The notes under the pieces: generated by a model
Database searches by the model: none
What the model was told of the DNA's origin: nothing
Seen by the model: only the letters and a program-made list of their open reading frames with translations
In this document: one piece after another, positions 19,532 through 22,093 of the stretch
Layout: each line of letters starts with the position of its first letter
How positions within the stretch are numbered: position 1 is the first letter of the stretch
Origin: Gongronella butleri
Taxonomy: Eukaryota > Mucoromycota > Mucoromycetes > Mucorales > Cunninghamellaceae
Direction: 5' to 3'
NCBI GenBank assembly: GCA_025201375.1
Contig: JAIWZP010000043.1
Span: 62,001 to 126,000, forward strand
Length of the DNA stretch: 64,000 bases
Translations under genes and position numbers: made by a program

Positions 19532-22093
19532 TTAAAAGTCGGTGACCGCGCCGCGGCTGGCGCAGCTGACGGTGTTGATGTATTTTTTGAGCATGCCCTT
19601 GTTGACCTTGGGGGCACGGGGCTTCCAGAGCGATTTGCGGCGCGCCATTTCCTCGTCGCTAACGTCGACGGTGATCTTCAGCGTTTCGGCATCAATGGTG
19701 ACGATATCGCCTTCCTCCACAAGCGCAATGGGGCCACCAACGTAAGCCTCTGGCGCAACATGGCCAACCTAAAGCATTAAAAAAGGTACTAAAAGTGAGC
19801 AATCGCGTAGTGGGTTGCCATTGTCCCCATTCTTACAATGAAACCGTGACTAGCACCCGAGAAACGACCATCCGTGATCAAGCTGCAGTCAGAGCCAAGA
19901 CCAGCGCCCATAATAGCAGCCGTGGGTTTCACTATAAAAAGAAATTAGTACGCGATGCATTGACCATGAGCGCGTTTGCATCGAAATTAATGACTTACAC
20001 ACTAGAAAAAAGACAATTTGATCAGCATTAAAGTCCTTTTTGGCAAGTTCATACGAGTGCCTTTGTCTTACTTTCAGGCATGCCAGGGCCGCCCTTGGGA
20101 CCCTGGTAGCGGATGATGATGACGGAGCCCTTGGAGATCTTGTTGGCCTCCAATGCCTCGAACAATTCTTCTTCGCTGTCGTAGACGCGAGCTGGACCGG
20201 TAAAGTTTAGGCCTTCCTTGCCTGTAATCTTGGCAACAGCGCCCTAGAATATAAAAAAAAGGAGAAATGCATCAGAAAACGCAGGACATTTCATTATTTT
20301 TTTTTCTCAATCCTTACCTCAGGGGCCAAGTTGCCGCGCAGGATATTCAAGTGGCCCGATGCCTTGATGGGGTTGGAGAGCGGGCGAATGACATCTTGGC
20401 CCTCGGTGAAGCCATCGCATTCCGCGAGGTTCTCGGCAATGGTCTTGCCGGTGACCGTCAAACACGAGCCGTCGAGCAAGTCGTTTTCGAGGAGGTATTT
20501 CATGACGGCAGGGACGCCACCGACGGCGTGCAGATCCTGCATTAGGTACTTGCCCGAAGGGCGCATGTTGGCGAGCAAGGGCGTGGATGCCGAGATGCGC
20601 TGGATGTCATCATAAGTAAAGTCCACTTCGGCCGCGTGCGCCGCCGCCAGGAAATGCAACACCGCATTTGTCGACCCGCCCAATGCAATCACCACGCGGA
20701 ACGCATTGCAGAACGCGGCCTTGGTCATGATATCAAGCGGCTTGATGTCCTTTTCAAGCAAAACGCGGATCGCCGCACCCGCACGCAGGCATTCCTTGAC
20801 CTTTTCGGGATCCTCGGCAGGAATGGACGCGCTGTAAGGCAGAGAAAGACCCATCGCTTCAATGGCAGCACCCACTGTGATAAAAAAAATAATAAAAAAA
20901 TCGTGAGTTGCCCCAAAATAAATGTATTTCAATTCCAATTCAGCTTACTTGTGTTGGCGGTGAACATGCCAGCGCAGCTGCCAGCACCGGGGCACGCATG
21001 CTTGATGATATCCTTGCGCTCCTCCTTGGTGATCTTGCCGGAAATGAGCTCGCCATTGCTCTCGAGCGCCGTGGCAATATCAATTTCGCGGTTGGCGCAG
21101 CTGCCGAGCGTGCCGTGGCCACGCTTCATCGTGCCACCATAGATGATCAGCGATGGGCGGTTAAGGCGCGCAATTGCCTGGAGCACACCGGGCATGTTCT
21201 TGTCGCTGCAGATCAAAAAGAAAAAATAAAGACGCGTCAGCGCGCGTGACAGTCTACAGTTCATCCGTGGGGAACCAATCCTTACCCTAAATAAAGAACA
21301 AGTTAAAAACGAATCCAATTCATCTCTAATTTTTTTTTATTGTGTGACTTACAGGCCGGAAGCGAAATGTTGGCGTCGTACCACAACGCGCTCATAACTG
21401 TTTCGATCGAGTCGGCGATGATTTCACGGCTGGGCAGGGAGAAGCGCATGCCTAGGCGTGTGAAAGAAGATGGCAAAAAGCGCGTTAGCGGGTTACCAGT
21501 CATATGATGATGGCGCGGGTCCCACCATGCCAAAGTGGTGCTTGCGAAACTTACCTTCATTGCCCATCGGAATAGCATCCGACACGCCAATGGTGTTGAA
21601 TTGGAACCCGACGAGACCCGCCTTCCACACGCCCTCCTTGACCTTGACCGCAAGGTCGTTGATGTGCATGTTACAGGGGTTGCCGTCATAACCACTGAGC
21701 AAAAACAATCCTGTGTGAGCCATTCCTTCCTTGTTTGCTCTTGTTTACTTGTTCATGGACACTTACAAGCTAGTGATGCCGACTTGCGCCTTTTCAAAGT
21801 CCTCGTCCTTCAAGCCGGTCGCGTACACTATCATCAAATCGCCAACAATTTAGTAAAAAAAACCCCCCCACGCGCGTCCAATTGGCTTACATTGAGCTTG
21901 ACCGGCTGCTGCCGTGTCATTCTGCGTCACGTTGCGGCTGTACTTGTTGAGGGGACCCTTGGCCTTGTCTTGTTCCTGGGCCTTGACTTTACGGCTTGCG
22001 CGCGCGAGGGCAAAAAAAAAAAGTGAGCCTTTACCCAGCCCTGGACGAACACTGCGCCTGTGTTTCATTGCCTTACATTTGAACTTCGCTCAT
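19532..22093 (-). CDS. ILV3: Dihydroxy-acid dehydratase
   Basis: Makes the 2-keto acids of valine and isoleucine from dihydroxy acids using an Fe-S cluster. Exons: 22093-22077, 21994-21891, 21827-21767, 21694-21555, 21451-21353, 21286 (1 nt), 21205-20949, 20874-20318, 20243-20072, 19931-19837, 19768-19532; about 579 residues. Family motifs in order: [98 protein letters not shown] and [20 protein letters not shown]. The three cysteines expected to bind the cluster are present. Keeping the frame between 21353 and 21205 requires a single-base exon that makes the second cysteine codon. The predicted N-terminus (MSEVQIRKVKAQ) is short and not a convincing mitochondrial presequence, unlike most fungal Ilv3, so a further 5' exon remains possible. 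Confidence 0.95.
21286..21286 (-). other. Single-nucleotide exon of ILV3 (proposed)
   Basis: Read on the minus strand, TTCTTTATTTAG is followed by one G and then GTAAGGATTGG. The preceding exon ends at 21353 with an extra T (GCC T|GTAAGT), and the next begins at 21205 with C GAC AAG after TTTTTGATCTGCAG. Joining T + G + C restores TGC GAC AAG, the conserved CDK of dihydroxy-acid dehydratases. Direct joining gives T + CG and shifts the frame out of the family sequence. Both flanks are canonical AG and GT sites. Confidence 0.75.

Follow-up and report, generated by a model that had tools for sequence, protein, structure and literature searches.

Whether a single nucleotide can serve as an exon, and supply the middle base of a cysteine codon that binds an iron-sulfur cluster, is the question raised by the dihydroxy-acid dehydratase (DHAD) gene ILV3 of Gongronella butleri. 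The gene occupies positions 19532..22093 on the minus strand of the window, the whole 64,000-nt stretch of DNA analysed here, which belongs to a 33-Mb genome in 110 contigs. Its model comprises 12 exons running from 22093 to 19532 and encodes 580 amino acids (580 codons plus stop, 1,743 coding bases in frame), with GTAAG donors in 11 of 11 introns and AG acceptors in all. The predicted product scores 781 bits against NCBIfam NF002068 (cut-off 644) and 730 bits against TIGR00110 (cut-off 618), exceeding both curated cut-offs and placing it in the DHAD (IlvD/ILV3) family, and its closest listed relative is the DHAD of Hesseltinella vesiculosa (84% identity), a member of the Cunninghamellaceae within the Mucorales, followed by that of Absidia glauca (77%). 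The model also contains a three-nucleotide exon 10 (TGT, 19999..20001, minus strand), which completes the Met-Leu of the motif MPEMLKPT. Because this motif is garbled or altered in 10 of 28 related fungal proteins (rows P0001-P0028 of the alignment), the comparison suggests that exon 10 is old and frequently missed by annotation.

The site at issue lies between exon 5 (21353..21451, minus strand, 99 nt), which ends in CTT CCG GCC T, and exon 7 (20949..21205, minus strand, 257 nt), which starts with C GAC AAG AAC ATG CCC. With splice junctions marked by slashes, the minus strand reads GCC T/gtaagt, followed by tttatttag/G/gtaagg and then ctgcag/C GAC AAG; re-reading the sequence reproduced exactly the positions given by the first-pass annotation, namely the T at 21353, GTAAGT from 21352, the lone G at 21286 and the C at 21205. 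The proposed exon 6 is this G (21286..21286, minus strand), the middle base of the Cys141 codon TGC. It separates intron 5a (21287..21352, minus strand, 66 nt, GTAAGT to TTTATTTAG, with a TTAAC branch-like element 16 nt before its end) from intron 5b (21206..21285, minus strand, 80 nt, GTAAGG to CTGCAG, with a CTGAC branch-like element 31 nt before its end), so that each intron has a canonical 5' splice site, a branch-like element and a 3' splice site of its own. The TTAAC of intron 5a is weaker than the CTNAY found by eye in most other introns compared. The single base stands between canonical 3' and 5' splice sites, TTTATTTAG/G/GTAAGG, which score 10.2 and 8.9, and all four splice-site scores of the two introns fall inside the training ranges (7.0-11.3 for the 19 training donors; the acceptor range is wide).

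The base is needed for the reading frame and for a conserved residue. With the lone G included, T, G and C join into TGC, the coding sequence is a multiple of three encoding 580 amino acids, and the block PACDKNMPG is intact. Joining exon 5 directly to exon 7 brings a stop after 159 amino acids, while retention of intron 5b or of intron 5a brings one after 141 or 156 amino acids, respectively. The first-pass annotation had claimed that the direct join breaks the frame, that the G restores the cysteine before DKNMPG and that skipping would be harmful, and all of this is borne out, with truncation predicted both when the exon is skipped and when either intron is kept. Its placing of the G in a metal-ligand codon also holds, since Cys141 aligns with the cysteine of the CDK motif in Arabidopsis DHAD, Cys139, which crystal structures describe as an Fe-S ligand (PMC11528067, PMC9543379). 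Every one of the 38 aligned DHAD proteins (of 120 listed) has CDKNMPG. The same translations separate the site from two related arrangements. Stwintrons leave no exonic base, and removal of all 147 nt here shifts the frame, with the stop after 159 amino acids; nor is this a recursive splice site with a zero-length exon, one needed base standing between AG and GT.

Could an ordinary single intron do as well? Every model placing one intron with GT/GC-AG or AT-AC ends between exons 5 and 7 was enumerated, the proposed arrangement being the one two-intron model covered, and 174 of these single-intron models were in frame and free of stops. None of the 174 leaves the protein unchanged, and no donor among them reaches a score of 7, the lower bound of the training donors. 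CDKNMPG survives in one, at the cost of a ten-residue deletion and with a donor score of 2.3. The least change among the 174 comes from joining a donor TAA/GTCACA at 21348 to 21205, which is in frame, keeps the cysteine and yields P-A-C-N-D-K; its donor scores -0.6 against 7.0-11.3 for the training donors, and the one inserted Asn falls between the Fe-S ligand and Asp-Lys, the Mg ligands, at a point where 38 of 38 aligned relatives have no insertion, so that this junction has a next to negligible probability. The comparison thus supports the one-nucleotide exon as the only arrangement, among the models tested, predicted to preserve the conserved block in full while using good splice sites.

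A single non-canonical intron of 146 nt, with GT...CA (or TA...AG) ends, would give the same TGC mRNA without any one-nucleotide exon. The G present on both sides makes its products identical to those of the one-nucleotide exon, and therefore cDNA alone could not tell the two apart. Ordinary U2 introns are not known to use GT...CA or TA...AG ends. Such an intron would also leave unexplained the good AG/G/GTAAGG inside it, as well as the RHO1 exon pairs described below, and it is considered very improbable.

The arrangement of signals is also unusual for its surroundings. YAGGGTAAG occurs once on both strands of the window (128,000 strand-bases), at the ILV3 site, and none of the other AG-N-GT sites in the window (271 in all, counting this one) matches it in both acceptor and donor score. 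When the 147-base region was shuffled with dinucleotides preserved, 7 of 20,000 shuffles held a YAG-G-GTRAG lying 40 nt or more from either end. The length of the region carries less weight. Elsewhere in the two DHAD genes the introns, 19 in number, measure 63-103 nt, all below 147 nt, and the length had first been taken as strong support (z 6.8). This was withdrawn, and the length is now counted as weak support and no longer leaned on, because 3 of 30 introns in a wider set from the same genome are 147 nt or longer. An origin as a repeated intron (introner) was also rejected, the 147-nt stretch matching only itself in the genome in a search that passes over simple repeats and very frequent words.

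The second of these DHAD genes lies on contig 56 (L009 2368-4947, minus strand), is complete and encodes 596 amino acids in 11 exons. It has a single intron at the same codon, TG/GTAAGT...CAG/C, and no one-nucleotide exon. Since the paralog reads exactly TG/GTAAGT here, one more G would make the window copy an ordinary gene as well. It could accordingly be asked whether the exon 5 donor has lost a G through an assembly or sequencing error, the genomic DNA being GCCTGGTAAGT (extra G, 21352) rather than GCCTGTAAGT, with the real junction GCCTG/GTAAGT, one intron some 147 nt long and AG-G-GTAAGG as a decoy within it. Introns of that length do exist in this genome, as the 3 of 30 above indicate. 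This explanation nevertheless needs an error at one of a few bases together with an intron in which good acceptor and donor sites happen to flank the very base required, the latter as rare among shuffles as given above, and YAGGGTAAG is itself scarce, with 188 occurrences in 66 million strand-bases. No frame correction is needed in the rest of ILV3 or in the paralog. The error is judged quite improbable.

Alternatively, the window gene might be a real one-base deletion allele or a decaying copy, frame-shifted, unrescued and tolerated thanks to the second DHAD gene, which is full-length and has the longer, presequence-like N-terminus. Apart from the base in question, the 1,743 coding bases (stop included) show no lesion and the 11 introns are canonical, and both the 84% identity to the Hesseltinella enzyme and the exceeded family cut-offs speak against decay, leaving this reading extremely improbable. 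The lone G at 21286 is, with high probability, a real and constitutively included one-nucleotide exon of a functional DHAD gene, as judged from the sequence, and its two flanking introns would be spliced in succession.

With a single base separating an acceptor from the donor downstream of it, the spliceosome can hardly occupy both at the same time. Because the intron 5a acceptor and the intron 5b donor could not be occupied together, the two introns would be removed stepwise by intron definition. If intron 5a left first, CCTG/GTAAGG would serve as the donor of intron 5b; if intron 5b left first, TTTAG/GCGAC would serve as the acceptor of intron 5a; either route would end in TGC. Both intermediates look spliceable from their sequences, and either order would be possible since the intron 5b donor scores about equally before and after removal of intron 5a (8.9 and 8.4).

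The paralog also bears on the origin of the exon. Its single intron has the position of intron 5b (TG/C), which makes either the upstream intron 5a, or a loss of the donor-side G with later rescue, the derived step. In the first case intron 5a would have been gained one base upstream of the TG/C intron. In the second the donor-side G would have been lost and a ready AG/G/GTAAGG inside the intron then recruited, much as donor-base loss with rescue has been proposed for a Fusarium gene by Nelson and Syed (PMC12940212). The ILV3 exon looks young, given that the aligned DHAD relatives all keep CDKNMPG, although intact proteins in relatives are no proof of its absence there. The N-terminus of the paralog is longer and presequence-like, and the window copy has no such extension and may be cytosolic. 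As the genome carries another intact DHAD gene, the window gene may not be individually essential. The suggestion of the first-pass annotation that the exon could act as a splicing checkpoint finds no support, nothing in the sequences pointing to regulation.

One-nucleotide exons are not numerous in this genome, as the motif counts show no genome-wide excess. The 188 occurrences of YAGGGTAAG compare with 533 of the reversed pattern, and AG-N-GTAAG likewise shows no excess over reversed controls (13 versus 29, 15 versus 28 and 4 versus 101 with branch motifs; 18 versus 31 in a further count). A scripted screen covered 111 distinct YAGGGTAAG sites out of the 188, and at 10 of the 111 the best open model used a one-nucleotide exon. 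Two were kept, in an ATO-type gene (L010) and in a RHO1 gene (L095). L065 and L105 proved on reading to have ordinary longer exons, L086 was judged to have one from the script output alone, and L046, L119, L013, L055 and L096 had low coding scores. No defensible one-nucleotide exon was seen at C48:244651 or at three non-G sites (in L131, L132 and L134) examined beyond the 111, nor at either of the two remaining YAG-N-GTAAG sites in the window. Weak sites would escape the screen, and RHO1 surfaced only through an initial model that was wrong.

The ATO/GPR1-FUN34-YaaH family gene (contig 1, PF01184 match of 250 bits) has a candidate one-nucleotide exon, G, at position 1507 of L010 (1188048 of contig 1, plus strand), which would complete a Thr codon. 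The layout is ATC CTC AC/gtaaag...tttacag/G/gtaagt...ttatag/GGT ATC, the G giving ACG, and the joined protein aligns without gaps at the junction with solved SatP-type structures. Skipping the exon brings a stop after 146 amino acids, just beyond the junction. Among 44 in-frame single-intron alternatives with GT/GC-AG ends, even the best costs the protein 18 residues. Shuffles equalled the arrangement in 24 of 20,000 cases, a figure biased by selection in that the gene was found by a motif search.

In RHO1 the candidate exons come in consecutive pairs. The copy on contig 56 (C56), found by the motif screen, has one-nucleotide exons A and G at L127:1129 and L127:999 on the minus strand (L127 being positions 465700-468300 of that contig). 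Exon 1 ends in GTGACGGTGCCTGTGGCA and is followed by tttag/A/gtaagt, cattag/G/gtaagc and gattag/ACTTGC, so that the product reads GDGACGKTCLL, with the P-loop Lys spelled A/A/G over three exons. The 351 bases concerned contain no AG-NN-GT/GC, that is, no canonical two-nucleotide exon, and the model (168 amino acids, the C-terminal end lying outside it) aligns without gaps over residues 2-168 with solved Rho1. Intron 2 of this copy also holds an additional GTAAGC donor (L127 1066, minus strand), accompanied by a CTAAC element of its own, which could allow a minor alternative exon. The paralog on contig 67 (C67), then located by a RHO1 protein search, follows the same plan in its P-loop Lys codon, with A at C67:310848 and G at C67:311034 (L128/L098), reading cgtacag/A/gtaagt, ttcttag/G/gtaagc and tcatag/ACG; these are the sole AG-N-GT sites in its 361 bases. 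None of 20,000 shuffles did as well for either copy; selection biases the C56 figure, that copy having come from the motif screen. A blastn comparison of the introns of one copy with those of the other turns up nothing beyond 10-12-nt matches in T runs, and exon 4 encodes the same peptide in both with 14 of 43 third positions changed. The motif GKT is kept in 120 of 120 listed RHO1 proteins (118 by motif pattern, 2 by reading). With the annotated DHAD (CDK) and RHO1 (GKT) proteins intact, the orthologs give no sign of one-nucleotide exons. Two further Rho-family members (C34 and C53), in which AGGGTAAG occurs nearby, have introns that look ordinary by eye.

These further genes weigh against a missing base as the explanation of ILV3, since ATO and the two RHO1 copies show a like deficit made good in a like way, each RHO1 copy lacking two bases that a pair of one-nucleotide exons provides. 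It is quite likely, on the genomic evidence, that one-nucleotide exons form a recurrent and faithfully spliced class in this Mucorales lineage, single in ILV3 and ATO and even back to back in RHO1, where the Lys codon AAG would be assembled from A/A/G ahead of a further intron in an arrangement predating the gene duplication despite the lost similarity of the introns. Any fixed order of splicing in RHO1 would be speculation.

Nuclear one-nucleotide exons have been reported in plants and in one fungal genus. In Arabidopsis, the constitutive one-nucleotide exon of APC11 lies between two introns and was shown experimentally by Guo and Liu (2015, PMC4674806), who regard intron definition with stepwise removal as most plausible; it is described as widely kept in land plants (PMC8831610). 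ILV3 resembles it in the two flanking introns and in the proposed stepwise removal, while APC11 is a plant gene with experimental proof. The one-nucleotide microexon of VPS55 in land plants is reported to have a conserved GTRAGT donor and to be absent from reference annotations; it differs from ILV3 in being a plant exon confirmed by RNA-seq and RT-PCR, with duplicated genes that differ in having it (PMC8831610). Closest in form is CYP621A of Fusarium, confirmed by transcript reads, shared by 20 orthologs and called by its authors the first case in a fungal gene (Nelson and Syed 2026, PMC12940212). As in ILV3, a G between AG and GT (AGGGT) forms the second position of a codon belonging to a conserved motif, with phase 1 before and phase 2 after; unlike this transcript-confirmed case, the ILV3 exon, which differs in gene, phylum and residue, is predicted from DNA and protein comparison. 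Its neighbouring U2 introns, spliced in succession, also recall the [D]-type stwintrons, in which one intron disturbs the donor of the other (PMC12403724, PMC9024468, PMC6616335), except that stwintrons leave nothing between the introns and ILV3 must retain one exonic base. Mitochondrial one-nucleotide exons are also on record (PMC5436844, PMC12308204). The extreme rarity claimed by the first-pass annotation, with Arabidopsis as the known example, is thus overstated, since VPS55 and CYP621A join APC11 and at least five more such exons apparently occur here in three other genes.

Because nuclear one-nucleotide exons are known in APC11, VPS55 and CYP621A, the ILV3 exon by itself is very probably one more member of a small known class. 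The back-to-back pairs of RHO1 look new and beyond the printed cases found; no such pairs appeared in the literature searched, which mostly excluded subscription papers. They would present a codon with each base in a separate exon, within an invariant motif of a core GTPase and alike in two paralogs, which would make them a demanding test of models of exon definition and of steric limits at splice sites, and a natural substrate for measuring splicing order. They also illustrate how gene prediction in Mucorales genomes could drop key residues.
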